64,000 nucleotides of DNA from positions 1 through 64,000 of the forward strand of contig CACDYR010000003.1 of the NCBI GenBank assembly GCA_902557155.1, written 5' to 3'. The notes beneath the pieces are model-generated. The model was not told the origin of the DNA. It saw nothing but the letters and a program-made list of their open reading frames with translations, and did no database searches. Positions 800-16,366 of the stretch are shown here, in pieces. The DNA comes from an uncultured Pelagibacteraceae bacterium (GTDB taxonomy: Bacteria > Pseudomonadota > Alphaproteobacteria > Pelagibacterales > Pelagibacteraceae). The number at the start of each line of letters is the position of its first letter. The first letter of the stretch is position 1. The translations under genes and the position numbers were made by a program.

Positions 800-3114
800 T
801 TTAGTAGATAAAAAATTTCCTTTGAATTTATATTTGATTGAATATTTTTTTCGTTTACTATCAAAGTATTTTCTTCAGCATTAATGAAAGTTTTTTTATG
901 TGACTCAATTTGAGAAAAATTTTTAATAGAATTAATTTTTAATTTAGCAGGTCCAAAAAAAAACTTTTTTATATAAGCGGCTGCATATATTCTTGTATTT
1001 GATAATTCTAATTTATCAATTTCTACATATGAATCATCTTTAGAAACCACACCTATATCTATATTACTTCCATTGATATTTTTTAAATTAACATTAGATT
1101 GCTCGCCAAAACTTGCAAGTTTATCTCCTATATCTTCACCATGAAGATAATCTCCTTTGATTATTGCTCCTGATGTATCAAGACAATCATTATAAGCTTT
1201 GATGCAAGAGATTTTTGTAAAAGATAAATTTCCAAAATCAACATCAATTGCATCTGATGCACTATTGAGAATTTTTAAATTATTTATAAAGCTTTCTGAG
1301 TTAACAAGATTAATTGCATCTTCGCCTTTTGATGAAACTATTTCGACATCATTAATTTTAACATTTGAATTTATAGCATTAATTGATCCTGACCAATTCA
1401 ATCCATCTATTTTAATATTTTTTAAATTTTTAAATTTAATATTTTTTAAGTTAATAATTCCTTCTAATTGTACAATCATTCCGTTTCCTTCAACCATCAT
1501 TTTATTCTCTGATCCTTGAAAATGACTTTCTCCCCTTAAATATAAAATAGCTCCATCTTCTAATAAAATTGTTTTATCAATAATTTTTAAATCATTTAAT
1601 ATCCATAAGCCTTTCGAAAAAATTAATTTATCTAATTTTTCGATATCTCCTAAATTTGTTAAAGATTTAAATTCTTTTTTTTCAATTTTTTTTTGAATAA
1701 AATCAACATTGTTTCCATCTTTTTTTAATAGTTTAAAATTTTTGAATGAATTAAGTTTTATTCTAATTAACTCAGCTCTTTTAATAATTGGTTCTAAATC
1801 AAAATAATAAGGTAAAAAACCTTTAAAAAACACTCTATCGAAACTTGAATACTCGGAATAAACAAGCTCATTAAATGGTTCAATTTTCTCTTCTACAACA
1901 TCATTAATTATATTGAGATATTCTTTTGAAGTATATTTTTCTAAATATTCTAAATAAAGTTTAATAAATTTATCGTTTTTTTTATTAAAAAAAACTTTAA
2001 GCCAATCCTTATCTTCGCAAACATATCCACAATTTATATTGTTGTTTTCATAATAATCTAAAAAAATAAATTCTTCATAGCCACTTCCAATATGCGCATC
2101 AAAAGCTATAGGCTCAAATAAACCATTTGAGGGATTGTAATAAAGTTTAACTGACTTTGGTACAGTGGCATGATAACCTTTCAAAACATCGGCTATTGCA
2201 AAAAACTTTGCCCATTTATCTATATCAAAGTAATTAGAAATTTTATATTGTTCGTTAGTTGAGTTTTTTTTTAATAACTCTAAATTTTCTCTTGATGTAA
2301 TATATATATCTGGATGATTAGAGATCCATTTATTTTCCGAATAATAATCATAAGTTAACATTGGAAAAATTTGATTTAAACTTTCCTCAATACCAATTAT
2401 TGGGCCATCTTTTCTACTCTGCCTTTCTAGAAGTTCTTTTGAAAATCCCTCTTCTAATACAAAAAGTCCAAGTTTTTTTGAATTTCTAATAAGATTTATT
2501 GGTATTATTTTTAAATATATCAAATCTTCTTTTTTAATAATCTCATGAAATAACAATTCCCAGCCATAATTTCTAATAATTGGCTTTTGTATAGACATTT
2601 CTTCCATGCCAAATATAAAATTATCATTTCTTACATCAACCTTATATGACATTTGATTCACATCAAGCCTGTGCATCTCTCTATCTCCTTTTGCCCTAAT
2701 TTTAACTTTAATTAATTCTGGTTCTTTGTTTTCATTTTCGCTTATTTTAATTCTCGCATTCGCGTATAATGGAATATCATTATCAACTAATCGTTTACGT
2801 TGCGCTTCTAAAATTTTTAAATTTTCAGAATTAATTAATATTTCAATATTTGGAATTTTTTTTTTCTTAAATTTATTAATAGTACCGATATAAAATACCC
2901 TTAAAATTTTTACTGGTGTATTTGCAGCAAAATGATTGTATTTTTCTTCGAAACCCATCATCTGAATAAAATTATCAAAAATTAAAGCTCTTCTTATATG
3001 AGATGTGTCACCAAAAAAAAGAATTGTGATTACTAAAATTACAGAAATAAAACCAGTTATAGCAAAAAAAAATTTAGATACTCTAAAAAGAAATTTAAAA
3101 AATTTTAATAACAT
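796..3114 (-). CDS. CotH-kinase-like membrane-anchored protein with C-terminal parallel beta-helix
   Basis: 772 residues. An N-terminal hydrophobic segment (about residues 13-35) would anchor the protein with the rest outside the cytoplasm. Residues about 130-260 follow the CotH layout: a 'KIRAKGD' strand, conserved Tyr/Trp positions, then 'KKLGLFVLEEGF', similar to the 'GEYxGLYLLxE' element of CotH spore-coat kinases. Residues about 500-740 are short repeats rich in Asn/Ile/Asp ('NLKNIKFKNLKNIKI'), as in right-handed parallel beta-helices of polysaccharide-active or adhesive proteins. CotH kinases phosphorylate secreted proteins; whether this one is active is unclear. It sits beside GT9/DUF6165 genes, so an envelope role is likely. 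Family assignment is by pattern only. Confidence 0.5.
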   Translation of the reverse strand: MLLKFFKFLFRVSKFFFAITGFISVILVITILFFGDTSHIRRALIFDNFIQMMGFEEKYNHFAANTPVKILRVFYIGTINKFKKKKIPNIEILINSENLKILEAQRKRLVDNDIPLYANARIKISENENKEPELIKVKIRAKGDREMHRLDVNQMSYKVDVRNDNFIFGMEEMSIQKPIIRNYGWELLFHEIIKKEDLIYLKIIPINLIRNSKKLGLFVLEEGFSKELLERQSRKDGPIIGIEESLNQIFPMLTYDYYSENKWISNHPDIYITSRENLELLKKNSTNEQYKISNYFDIDKWAKFFAIADVLKGYHATVPKSVKLYYNPSNGLFEPIAFDAHIGSGYEEFIFLDYYENNNINCGYVCEDKDWLKVFFNKKNDKFIKLYLEYLEKYTSKEYLNIINDVVEEKIEPFNELVYSEYSSFDRVFFKGFLPYYFDLEPIIKRAELIRIKLNSFKNFKLLKKDGNNVDFIQKKIEKKEFKSLTNLGDIEKLDKLIFSKGLWILNDLKIIDKTILLEDGAILYLRGESHFQGSENKMMVEGNGMIVQLEGIINLKNIKFKNLKNIKIDGLNWSGSINAINSNVKINDVEIVSSKGEDAINLVNSESFINNLKILNSASDAIDVDFGNLSFTKISCIKAYNDCLDTSGAIIKGDYLHGEDIGDKLASFGEQSNVNLKNINGSNIDIGVVSKDDSYVEIDKLELSNTRIYAAAYIKKFFFGPAKLKINSIKNFSQIESHKKTFINAEENTLIVNEKNIQSNINSKEIFYLLN

Positions 3115-4048: not shown

Positions 4049-4726
4049 TTATTGCTGAAAGCTGTACTTTTTCTCTAAATATTTAATCACATTATGAATG
4101 ATAAAAGTCATGAATAAATAAATTCCACCAGCAACAATGAATACTTCTATTGGTTTAAAAGTTGTTGAAATTATATATTTAGCAACACCAGTTAAATCCA
4201 TCAAGGTAACTGTGCTTGCTAATGAAGTGCCTTTCATCATCAATATGATTTCATTTCCATATGCTGGGAGTGATTGTCGAATAGCAATTGGAATTTGAAT
4301 TTTATAAAAGATTATCTTATTTGATATGCCTAAACTTTTTCCAGCCTCAATAATACCTGGTTTTATTGTTTGAAATGCTGATCTTAAAATTTCAGAGGTA
4401 TATGCACCAGTATTTAAAGTAAAAGCTATAATTGCACACCAATAAGGTTCTTTTAAAATTACCCATAGAAATGTTGTTCTTAAATATTCAATTTGGCCTA
4501 ATCCAAAATAAATTATGAAAATCTGGACCAATAATGGTGTTCCTCTAAAAATATATGAATAGCCATAAGCAAATTTATTGATAAATATATTTTTATTTAA
4601 TCTTAAAATTGCAAAGAAAAGACCTAGGAATAATCCAAAAAATAATGATGCAGATAATAATTTTAAAGTGACTACTGTTGCTCCTAGAAGTTTAGGGAAA
4701 CTAGTGATCATTAAATCAAAATCCAT
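4049..4726 (-). CDS. Polar amino acid ABC transporter permease (HisM-like)
   Basis: 225 residues with about five hydrophobic segments and the His/Glu/Gln permease signature: 'YSYIFRGTPLLVQIF' near residue 60 and the EAA-type loop 'EAGKSLGISNKI' that docks on the ATPase. This is an inner-membrane subunit for uptake of a polar or basic amino acid or opine, paired with the preceding permease (shared nucleotide at 4726). No ATP-binding gene lies in this operon: the next gene downstream is the PhyH oxygenase. Confidence 0.88.
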   Translation of the reverse strand: MDFDLMITSFPKLLGATVVTLKLLSASLFFGLFLGLFFAILRLNKNIFINKFAYGYSYIFRGTPLLVQIFIIYFGLGQIEYLRTTFLWVILKEPYWCAIIAFTLNTGAYTSEILRSAFQTIKPGIIEAGKSLGISNKIIFYKIQIPIAIRQSLPAYGNEIILMMKGTSLASTVTLMDLTGVAKYIISTTFKPIEVFIVAGGIYLFMTFIIHNVIKYLEKKYSFQQ

Positions 4727-5418
4727 TAATACCCCCTGCTATATCTAACTTCTAACTTATTAATTAATTTCATACTCACGTAAGTAAGCAACAGATATAA
4801 AACTGCTGCAAAAGAATAAAAGAACAGTGGATCTCGTGTTGAGCCAGCTGCAATATAAGATTGTCTCATTATTTCAACTAAACCAGTAACTGAAATTAGA
4901 GAGGTATCTTTTAAAGTTATTTGCCAAACATTACTTAGATTTGGAATAGCAAGTCTTAACATTTGGGGTAGTATTATTTTATAAAATTTCCCAAACTTAT
5001 TTATTCCAAGCACCTTTGCAGCTTCAAATTGACCTTTATCTATTGATTGAATTGCGCCCCGAAACACTTCTGTTGAATACGCACCAGAAATAATTCCAAT
5101 AGCCATTGATCCTGTAACAAAAGCATTTATTTCTATATATTCGTAATAACCAAATATTGAAGCCACATACATGATTGCTCCACTACCACCAAAAAAGAAA
5201 AGGTAAATTACTAATAATTCAGGCACTCCACGGATTACTGTTGTATAAAAATTTCCAACTAAGTTTAAAGCTTTATTTTTTGAAAGTTTTAAAGGTGTAA
5301 AAATTAATGCAAAAAAGAAACCAACCAACATTGCTGTAATTGATACAGCGATTGTCATCAAGGTTGCATAAAATAATTCGTCACCCCAACCTGTTTTACC
5401 AAATGCGAGAAGTTCCAT
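4726..5418 (-). CDS. Polar amino acid ABC transporter permease (HisQ-like)
   Basis: 230 residues, about five TM segments, with 'NFYTTVIRGVPELLVIY' and the ATPase-coupling loop 'FEAAKVLGINKFGK' characteristic of the HisM/HisQ family. It would form a heterodimer with the downstream permease. It lies 44 bp after the binding-protein gene, with a strong hairpin in the gap that probably lowers its expression relative to the binding protein. Confidence 0.88.
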   Translation of the reverse strand: MELLAFGKTGWGDELFYATLMTIAVSITAMLVGFFFALIFTPLKLSKNKALNLVGNFYTTVIRGVPELLVIYLFFFGGSGAIMYVASIFGYYEYIEINAFVTGSMAIGIISGAYSTEVFRGAIQSIDKGQFEAAKVLGINKFGKFYKIILPQMLRLAIPNLSNVWQITLKDTSLISVTGLVEIMRQSYIAAGSTRDPLFFYSFAAVLYLLLTYVSMKLINKLEVRYSRGY

Positions 5419-10030: not shown

Positions 10031-10558
10031 ATGAATTTAAAAGATTATATTAGATCTATTCCTGATTATCCAAAAAAAGGGATTTTGTTTAGAGATATTA
10101 CAACTTTAATTAAAGATGAGAATGCTTTTTCTGAAACAATCAACCAAATTGTAGAAAGATCAAAAAAATTTAATTTTACAAAAATTGCTGCAATTGAGTC
10201 TAGAGGTTTTGTATTTGCTTCTGCAGTTTCTTATATTTTAAAAAAACCATTTATTATGCTCAGAAAAAAAAATAAATTACCTGCAGAGGTTCATTCAGTA
10301 GATTTTGAGTTAGAATACGGAACAGCAACAATAGAGGTGCACAAAGATTCTATAAACGAGAAAGATACTGTTTTAATTATTGATGATTTAATTGCAACAG
10401 GTGGAACTGCAGAAGCTGCTGCAAAACTTGTTGAAATTTCAAAAGGAAAAGTTGCTGCTTTTATATTTGTTATTAATCTATTTGATTTAGGTGGCTCAGA
10501 TAATTTAATTAAAAAAAAATATAATGTTGAAAATTTAATGGAATTTCCAGGACATTAA
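10031..10558 (+). CDS. apt: Adenine phosphoribosyltransferase
   Basis: 175 residues, the standard Apt length. 'IRSIPDYPKKGILFRDIT' at the N-terminus and the PRPP-binding loop 'VLIIDDLIATGGTA' identify it. It turns adenine and PRPP into AMP. Divergent from mtnP, whose product is adenine, so the two probably share a regulatory region. The stop interlocks with that of the convergent GT2 gene (TTAA at 10555-10558). Confidence 0.96.
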   Translation: MNLKDYIRSIPDYPKKGILFRDITTLIKDENAFSETINQIVERSKKFNFTKIAAIESRGFVFASAVSYILKKPFIMLRKKNKLPAEVHSVDFELEYGTATIEVHKDSINEKDTVLIIDDLIATGGTAEAAAKLVEISKGKVAAFIFVINLFDLGGSDNLIKKKYNVENLMEFPGH

Positions 10559-14685: not shown

Positions 14686-15720
14686 ATGAGAATTGAAGAA
14701 GAGTTAAAATTAGATTATTCAGACGTTTTATTTAGACCTAAGAGAAGTACTCTAAAAAGTCGAAAAGATGTTAATCTTTTAAGGACTTATAGATTCAAGT
14801 ACAGTAAAAATGAATGGTCAGGTATTCCTATCATGGCAGCAAATATGGATGGAGTTGGAGAATTAAGTGTTGCTGAAAAATTAAATGAATATGGAATGAT
14901 AACATCTTTAACAAAACAACATGATGTTAAAAAAATTAAACAAAATAAAAATATTAAAAAAATATATCCTAATATCGCACTTAGTGTTGGTATCAAAAAA
15001 GAAGATTTTCAAAATTTAGATAAGGTATTAAAAGAATTTAGTTTTTTTAAGTTTATTTGTATTGATGTTGCTAATGGATATACAGAGCATTTTACTAATT
15101 TTATTAAATCAGTCAGAGATAAATATCCTACAAAAACGATTATTGCTGGCAATGTGGTAACAGCAGACATGACACAAGAATTAGTTCTAAGTGGAGCAGA
15201 TATTGTTAAAGTAGGAATTGGACCTGGAAGTGTTTGTACAACAAGAATTCAAACTGGAGTTGGTTATCCACAATTAAGTGCAGTAATCGAATGTGCTGAT
15301 GCAGCACATGGACTTGGTGCACATGTAATTGCAGATGGTGGATGCACATGTCCTGGTGATGTGGCTAAAGGTTTTGGAGGCGGAGCAGATTTTGTAATGC
15401 TTGGCGGTATGTTAGCTGGACATGATGAGGGAAATGGTAAAATTGTTAAAGTTAATGGAGAAAAATATATAGAGTTTTATGGATCTAGTTCTGAGGTTGC
15501 TAATAAAAAACACTATGGTGGACTATCAGATTATCGAAGTAGTGAAGGAAGAAAAGTAAGAGTAAAATATAGAGGCAAAATAAACGATACTATTTTAAAT
15601 ATTCTCGGCGGTGTAAGAAGTAGCTGTACTTATGTTGGTGCTCCTTCGCTTAAACAATTAAGCAAATGTACGACTTTCGTTAGAGTATCAAATCAGTTTA
15701 ATGATAGTTTAATTAAATAA
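14686..15720 (+). CDS. guaC: GMP reductase
   Basis: 344 residues, close to the length of E. coli GuaC (347). 'LDYSDVLFRPKRSTL' at the N-terminus, 'GIGPGSVCTTRIQTGVGYPQ' with the catalytic Cys, and 'YGSSSE' typical of GMP reductases rather than IMP dehydrogenases. No CBS domains, consistent with GuaC. It deaminates GMP to IMP, linking guanine and adenine nucleotides. The convergent phosphoribosyltransferase gene ends 1 bp away, so purine salvage functions cluster here. Confidence 0.9.
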   Translation: MRIEEELKLDYSDVLFRPKRSTLKSRKDVNLLRTYRFKYSKNEWSGIPIMAANMDGVGELSVAEKLNEYGMITSLTKQHDVKKIKQNKNIKKIYPNIALSVGIKKEDFQNLDKVLKEFSFFKFICIDVANGYTEHFTNFIKSVRDKYPTKTIIAGNVVTADMTQELVLSGADIVKVGIGPGSVCTTRIQTGVGYPQLSAVIECADAAHGLGAHVIADGGCTCPGDVAKGFGGGADFVMLGGMLAGHDEGNGKIVKVNGEKYIEFYGSSSEVANKKHYGGLSDYRSSEGRKVRVKYRGKINDTILNILGGVRSSCTYVGAPSLKQLSKCTTFVRVSNQFNDSLIK

Positions 15721-15721
15721 T

Positions 15722-16240
15722 TTATTTTTCAAACTTAAAATCTTTAATATTTGTAGTTTCATATTTCTCAAAAGGCATGTGTATCCAAGGAGAGTCTTTT
15801 AAGTAATCTACAGAATAATCTGGTTTAAATTTTGATGTTGATTTATGCCATAAAACTGCAGTTTTAATTTTTTCATCAAAATAAAAACCATAAAAATGTT
15901 CTAACCATTTAATACTTTTTATTAAAGTTTTTCCAGAATCAGCTAAATCATCAACTAACAAAACATGTGAACCCAAATTTGGAGTGGTTTTTGCTAAATC
16001 TCTTGAAAAAGTAAACTGTCCTTGTTGATTTTTTATATCGTCACTATCACCATGGTAAGACTCAACAGATAAAATGGCTAAAGGGACATTAAAAAGTCTA
16101 CTAAAAATATCTCCAACCCTTAATCCACCTTTTGCAATACAAATTATTTGATTAAATTTTAAATTATCATCATGAATTTTTTTAGCTAATTGCTCTATCT
16201 TTTTATGATAATCTTCCCAAGTTATATAAATATCTTTCAT
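15722..16240 (-). CDS. Xanthine/guanine-type phosphoribosyltransferase
   Basis: I choose the ATG at 16240 (172 residues, MKDIYITWEDYHKKI), not the track start at 16273, which lies inside the tRNA-Met gene. The PRPP loop is visible as 'HVLLVDDLADSGKTLIKSI', and 'IICIAKGGLRVGDIFSRLF' resembles Gpt and related phosphoribosyltransferases. The probable reaction is guanine/xanthine/hypoxanthine plus PRPP to the nucleotide, which fits the adjoining guaC. The start codon is 6 nt from the tRNA CCA end with no Shine-Dalgarno in between. Exact base preference is not readable. Confidence 0.82.
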   Translation of the reverse strand: MKDIYITWEDYHKKIEQLAKKIHDDNLKFNQIICIAKGGLRVGDIFSRLFNVPLAILSVESYHGDSDDIKNQQGQFTFSRDLAKTTPNLGSHVLLVDDLADSGKTLIKSIKWLEHFYGFYFDEKIKTAVLWHKSTSKFKPDYSVDYLKDSPWIHMPFEKYETTNIKDFKFEK

Positions 16241-16246
16241 AATTTT

Positions 16247-16323
16247 TGGTAGCGGGAAGTGGGATCGAACCACTGACCTCGGGCTTATGAGTCCCGCGCT
16301 CTAACCAACTGAGCTACCCCGCC
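16247..16323 (-). tRNA. tRNA-Met (anticodon CAU), elongator-like, CCA encoded
   Basis: The minus strand folds as a full cloverleaf: acceptor GGCGGGG with TCCCGCT (G-U at both ends), D-arm GCTC/GAGC, anticodon loop CTCATAA, variable loop AGGTC, T-arm AGTGG/CCACT with TTCGATC, discriminator A and encoded CCA; 77 nt in all. The TA at 8-9 and the D-loop look like an elongator, and the GGG:CCC block lies one pair away from the initiator position. Pair 31-39 is an A-G mismatch. A lysidine-modified tRNA-Ile2 cannot be fully excluded from sequence. Confidence 0.95.
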
Positions 16324-16338
16324 TTAATTGATAAGTGG

Positions 16339-16366
16339 TTTATAATATAAATCTTTATTGTTTCAA
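16339..16366 (-). promoter_or_regulatory. Candidate sigma-70 promoter for tRNA-Met and the downstream phosphoribosyltransferase
   Basis: On the minus strand TTGAAA (16366-16361) and TATAAA (16344-16339) are separated by 16 bp, and the -10 box ends 15 bp before the tRNA 5' end. It is near consensus and well placed, though AT-rich DNA yields such matches by chance. Confidence 0.45.

Follow-up and report, generated by a model that had tools for sequence, protein, structure and literature searches.

Close tRNA-mRNA junctions in SAR11 and a candidate near-leaderless phosphoribosyltransferase mRNA released by tRNA processing

The tRNA-Met and phosphoribosyltransferase locus

In the ocean, SAR11 bacteria rank among the most abundant. 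The window analyzed here is a 64,000-nucleotide stretch (positions 1 to 64,000 of contig CACDYR010000003.1) of a SAR11 genome (Pelagibacteraceae) that amounts to 1.27 Mb in 22 contigs. Read along the minus strand, an open reading frame of 69 amino acids is followed by a promoter, a tRNA-Met gene, the hexanucleotide AAAATT, and the ATG of a gene for a phosphoribosyltransferase (PRT). The features of the locus are as follows.

14686..15720, plus strand: GMP reductase (PRK05096, 538 bits, exceeding the cutoff)
15722..16240, minus strand: PRT, 172 amino acids, with a purine-type phosphoribosyltransferase domain (PF00156) and its ATG at 16240-16238
16246-16241, minus strand: 6-nt spacer AAAATT, all that could serve as a leader were the tRNA cut after CCA
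16247..16293, minus strand: 3' 47 nt of the tRNA, duplicated as direct repeats by inserts in relatives; the site is unoccupied in the window
16271..16273, minus strand: in-frame GTG within the tRNA, taken from a mechanical list of open reading frames and rejected as a start
16323-16247, minus strand: tRNA-Met(CAT) with an encoded CCA (ARAGORN; Rfam tRNA, 62.6 bits; compared with E. coli metY)
16339..16344, minus strand: -10 hexamer TATAAA, 16 nt past the -35 hexamer
16361..16366, minus strand: -35 hexamer TTGAAA
16393..16602, minus strand: conserved 69-amino-acid open reading frame upstream of the tRNA promoter, with homologues in the same place in relatives

The first-pass annotation had placed the CCA end of the tRNA at 16247, followed by AAAATT and an ATG at 16240, and both the ARAGORN call and the sequence agree. 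The tRNA carries a CAT anticodon and is unlike E. coli metY, and another copy in the genome, on C8 (L097), is near-identical in type to metY. By that comparison, the C8 copy is the initiator and the tRNA at 16323-16247 is not; the latter is probably an elongator tRNA-Met. The PRT matched PF00156 in a profile search (E value of 5.6e-24, 84.7 bits), and the xanthine PRT and HGPRTase models scored it under their equivalog cutoffs (52.3 versus 138 bits and 45.1 versus 150 bits, respectively). GMP reductase is convergent with the PRT, and the two stop codons lie 1 nt apart. The 69-amino-acid open reading frame matched no family in Pfam or NCBIfam. We note that purine salvage genes in the window, namely, GMP reductase, the PRT, and a likely adenine phosphoribosyltransferase (the last judged by eye), occupy 10031-10558 and 14686-16240 and surround a variable block that holds sugar and surface genes.

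Conservation and rearrangement around tRNA-Met

One promoter, at 16339-16366, had been proposed to drive both the tRNA and the PRT. In a sigma-70 consensus scan, the promoter at 16366 fell below the listing threshold, and promoter-like sites were fewer than in shuffled sequence. Because the scan did not list that promoter, phylogenetic footprinting was used, in which 110 nt upstream of the tRNA were aligned across 65 loci. The value of pi was 0.084 at the -35 hexamer, where T1, T2, and A5 were invariant, and 0.089 at the -10 hexamer versus 0.294 just downstream; with pi at 0.239 between the hexamers and about 0.29 to 0.33 in the flanks, the hexamers were 3 to 4 times less variable. The proposed interval is exactly TTGAAA-16 nt-TATAAA and coincides with this conserved footprint. 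Transcription would begin about 7 nt beyond the -10 element, some 8 nt ahead of the tRNA. Moreover, no terminator-like site was detected in the region, and the 6-nt gap is too small for a terminator, an independent promoter, or a separate leader, in keeping with a single promoter for both genes. Because no terminator lies between the tRNA and the PRT, a transcript from the tRNA promoter should reach the PRT, and we infer that the two are very probably cotranscribed. The AAAATT spacer itself had a pi of 0.16 versus 0.25 at third codon positions and 0.33 in the flanks, and its positions 2 to 4 and 6 were nearly invariant among relatives.

The junction was compared across 80 close SAR11 homologous loci, picked by protein similarity, that are close relatives and not independent. 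An intact tRNA lies directly upstream of the PRT at 64 of the 80 loci, the 3' 47 nt alone at 7, and no tRNA at 9, a count that includes L040 with its visibly decayed copy; at least the 3' half of the tRNA is kept at 71. The spacer is 6 nt long in 62 of the 71 loci with any tRNA end and ranges from 5 to 8 nt, such that the junction in the first-pass annotation is indeed conserved in related genomes. The same ATG and the protein that follows it are kept in all 80 loci, including those that lost the tRNA, which bears out the choice of 16240. Translation might have begun instead at the GTG at 16273, the first start codon after a stop in the mechanical list. Four tRNA-less loci, however, have an in-frame stop at codon -3 relative to the ATG, two more have an in-frame stop and then no start codon before the ATG, and the tRNA-less loci conserve the PRT from the ATG onward. 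Because of these in-frame stops just upstream of the ATG, we conclude that the GTG, either absent or behind a stop in tRNA-less loci, is ruled out as the PRT start, a position that the first-pass annotation had called unlikely, and we give it next to no probability. A practical warning is that callers of open reading frames can put starts inside tRNAs at such junctions.

Linkage of the PRT to the tRNA is patchy. The PRT-GMP reductase pair is found between the 69-amino-acid open reading frame and the tRNA in L040, L065, and L071, in swapped order in L076 and L078, and elsewhere in L033, L045, and L046. In L040, a decayed tRNA-Met (2918-2994) precedes the PRT and an intact tRNA-Met (4658-4734) is found past GMP reductase, a pattern suggestive of tRNA duplication followed by decay of the original copy. 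Among the seven loci in which the PRT is preceded only by the 3' part of the tRNA, six (L001, L023, L027, L036, L052, and L080) have an insert of about 0.6 to 2 kb between an intact tRNA and the 47-bp copy, and in the seventh (L030) the stretch covered stops short of the far side. The insert separates the PRT from the tRNA promoter, and thus, the tRNA-PRT linkage is not obligatory. In these comparisons, the tRNA-Met-PRT junction is less universal than the other junctions described below because tRNA-Met is also a hotspot of insertion and rearrangement.

The inserts deserve a description of their own. One family is present in L001, L023, L027, L030, and L036 (upstream of locus position 3001) and in L326-L331, and was found in 6 of 300 genomes of the genus. 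Its ends are conserved, with TTCTAGACGATCGATAT on the left and about 150 nt with TTGCTCCAATAGTGCTCCAATGACATTGG on the right, and its cargo varies (an ECF sigma factor plus an EF-hand protein, GcvT-like, DUF2061-like, and LysE). No integrase was seen in the family at tRNA-Met, and by exact match the family was found in no viral contig. In L327, the right end occurs twice, at a distance of about 1.15 kb. The inserts of L052 and L080 have the same kind of left end and a different right end, and that of L052 encodes a trypsin-like protease. A phage origin of tRNA-Met was considered and rejected, as the best phage matches listed were to ordinary tRNA genes of phages and did not exceed 83%; three short viral contigs hold the 3' part of tRNA-Met, and two of these hold a full tRNA. 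Finally, a tRNA-Arg(tct) elsewhere in the genome (L092, G000:C13:8746-8819, minus strand) has a 332-amino-acid integrase-like open reading frame, judged by eye, 90 nt downstream, and a prophage or island at that site is possible.

Close junctions at other SAR11 tRNA genes

The PRT start lacks a Shine-Dalgarno sequence, as was first annotated, and the absence was confirmed but does not set the gene apart. In 834,689 bases of the genome, window included, a Shine-Dalgarno-like tetramer was present at about 17.5% of starts versus 7.8% after shuffling; the most upstream ATG of each frame served as its start, a choice that dilutes the estimate. The median gap between genes on the same strand is 3 nt. 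Thus, the lack of a Shine-Dalgarno sequence and the tight packing are both ordinary in this genome, in which the anti-Shine-Dalgarno sequence of 16S rRNA is intact.

Close junctions were defined as those in which an ATG-started open reading frame of at least 80 amino acids begins on the same strand no more than 10 nt past the tRNA CCA. In the window's genome, 30 of 32 tRNA genes were oriented, and 8 of the 30 had a close junction, all with an ATG and a leader devoid of a Shine-Dalgarno sequence.

tRNA-Gln, 3 nt, CCA-adding/poly(A) polymerase-like
tRNA-Leu-taa, 4 nt, NAD kinase
tRNA-His, 4 nt, histidyl-tRNA synthetase-like
tRNA-Pro, 6 nt, NDUS4
tRNA-Met, 6 nt, PRT
tRNA-Leu-caa, 7 nt, AMP-binding enzyme
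tRNA-Gly-gcc, 9 nt, pterin dehydratase
tRNA-Leu-tag, 10 nt, trigger factor

We note that tRNA-His (L101) and tRNA-Gln (L100) adjoin genes of tRNA-related enzymes in three genera.

Close junctions recur in other SAR11 genera at similar counts (8 of 30 in G001 and 9 of 29 in G034) and at 3 of 27 tRNA genes in a second family of the order (G002). None was found at 27 tRNAs from six other alphaproteobacterial genomes or at 29 tRNAs of a 1.4-Mb alphaproteobacterium. The three SAR11 genera differ from the other alphaproteobacteria (0 of 56; Fisher p of 1.5e-6), where the combined control counts a few tRNAs twice, five loci of the 1.4-Mb genome being also in the set of 27, and its genomes are GC-richer than those of SAR11. 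A composition-matched mirror control, on the 5' side and the opposite strand, gave 0 of 89 tRNAs in three SAR11 genomes. Moreover, seven junctions are orthologous between genera, with proteins 38 to 68% identical and most aligned residue 1 to residue 1. The start of trigger factor is supported because the protein aligns to its Pfam profile from position 1. Spacers of orthologous junctions range from 1 to 12 nt and differ in sequence; no shared processing signal was visible when they were compared, and a specific signal in the spacer was rejected. As a contrast, the tRNA-Gly(tcc)-tuf junction has a leader of 30 to 48 nt with a Shine-Dalgarno sequence in all four genomes. Given that long leader and the intact anti-Shine-Dalgarno sequence, the class of short junctions is not an artifact of the method. 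We conclude from these sequence comparisons that close tRNA-mRNA junctions are a conserved, clade-wide class in SAR11. The first-pass annotation treated tRNA-Met-PRT as one locus; the junction stands, but it is not a one-off, being one of the eight and part of this conserved set.

Processing, alternatives, and known systems

How the PRT might be expressed from such a junction can be framed as a series of steps. A single transcript from the promoter at 16366-16339 would carry tRNA-Met together with the PRT mRNA. RNase P would mature the 5' end of the tRNA, and a cut at or just past CCA would free the tRNA and leave an mRNA with its AUG no more than 6 nt from the 5' end (6 nt if the cut falls exactly after CCA). 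The likeliest nucleases for that cut are RNase E, acting in the A/U spacer, or an RNase Z-like enzyme. Translation of the PRT would then begin without a Shine-Dalgarno sequence, in a leaderless-like manner, and the same design may apply to several further tRNA genes of SAR11. The genome encodes an RNase E/G, and the search for RNase Z gave only a weak match below the cutoff. Taken as a whole, cotranscription followed by tRNA 3' processing to an mRNA whose leader is at most 10 nt is the reading we favor and think probable. Its later part, namely, production of a near-leaderless mRNA by cleavage and the use of that form for translation, seems slightly better than an even bet. A point against the reading is that, in mycobacteria, a start codon a few nucleotides in from the 5' end is considered weaker than one at a true +1 position (PMC4633059).

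Ribosomes might alternatively initiate on the unprocessed tRNA-mRNA precursor, in which case 3' processing would be unneeded and might compete with translation. The anatomy of the locus implies cotranscription, and the A/U-rich sequence at the start has little structure beside the stable tRNA fold, although the fold of the tRNA plus PRT start was uninformative (z of -1.23). A folded tRNA 6 nt ahead of the AUG, with no Shine-Dalgarno sequence, however, leaves no single-stranded landing site. We consider initiation on the precursor unlikely. Comparably unlikely, in our estimate, is that the junction has no special function and reflects mere packing. Because the median same-strand gap is 3 nt, tight packing alone could give these junctions, and a PRT-GMP reductase module might simply have landed at a rearrangement-hotspot tRNA-Met in a genome with minimal spacers, with expression relying on starts inside the tRNA that are weak or cryptic. 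The 3' flank of tRNA-Met is highly variable across the genus, and the PRT can also sit 5' to the tRNA, past GMP reductase, or elsewhere. Packing, however, leaves unexplained both the orthologous short junctions that three genera share at core genes and the conserved tRNA promoter, and a start inside the spacer would require a -10 element in the invariant acceptor end of the tRNA.

If tRNA 3' processing does operate at these junctions, tRNA excision may be a routine source of mRNA 5' ends in SAR11, giving near-leaderless mRNAs at roughly one in four tRNA genes for core genes that include trigger factor, the histidyl-tRNA synthetase-like gene, NAD kinase, the CCA-adding-like enzyme, and the PRT. 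We hold this extension tentatively, at a little short of even chances. Were it true, protein output would be tied to tRNA transcription and maturation, and tRNA supply would be linked to specific proteins, such as the HisRS-like protein behind tRNA-His and the CCA-adding-like enzyme behind tRNA-Gln. It would also amount to mitochondria-like punctuation in free-living bacteria and show the extent to which streamlining can strip leaders. For HTCC7211, mdRNA-Seq data on transcription start sites exist (PMC5069720).

Searches of the openly accessible literature turned up no account of SAR11 tRNA-mRNA junctions. The closest likeness is tRNA punctuation in mitochondria (Ojala et al. 1981, as cited in PMC11157125), where a tRNA abuts an open reading frame with no leader or a very short one and no Shine-Dalgarno sequence. 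The SAR11 junctions share that abutment, with 6 nt here and 3 to 10 nt at the seven others. They differ in that only 8 of 30 tRNAs are involved and each presumably has its own promoter, as with the local one before tRNA-Met, instead of a polycistronic transcript of the whole genome; the anti-Shine-Dalgarno sequence is intact, and the processing is one that we infer. The tRNA-mRNA operons of E. coli (thrU-tyrU-glyT-thrT-tufB and metY-rimP-nusA) are alike in having a presumably shared promoter and no dedicated terminator in between, and indeed, a promoter lies upstream of the tRNA and no terminator precedes the coding sequence at the PRT. The gaps in E. coli, however, are 114 nt before tufB and 206 nt before rimP, whereas the SAR11 junctions are 3 to 10 nt and without a Shine-Dalgarno sequence; a leader with a ribosome-binding site is lacking at the PRT and present at tuf in the same genome. 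Finally, the leaderless mRNAs of mycobacteria (PMC4633059) are alike in initiating without a Shine-Dalgarno sequence, and all eight SAR11 junctions have an ATG start and no Shine-Dalgarno sequence. In mycobacteria, transcription begins at the start codon (PMC4633059), whereas in SAR11 tRNA processing would create the 5' end and leave 3 to 10 nt ahead of the AUG.
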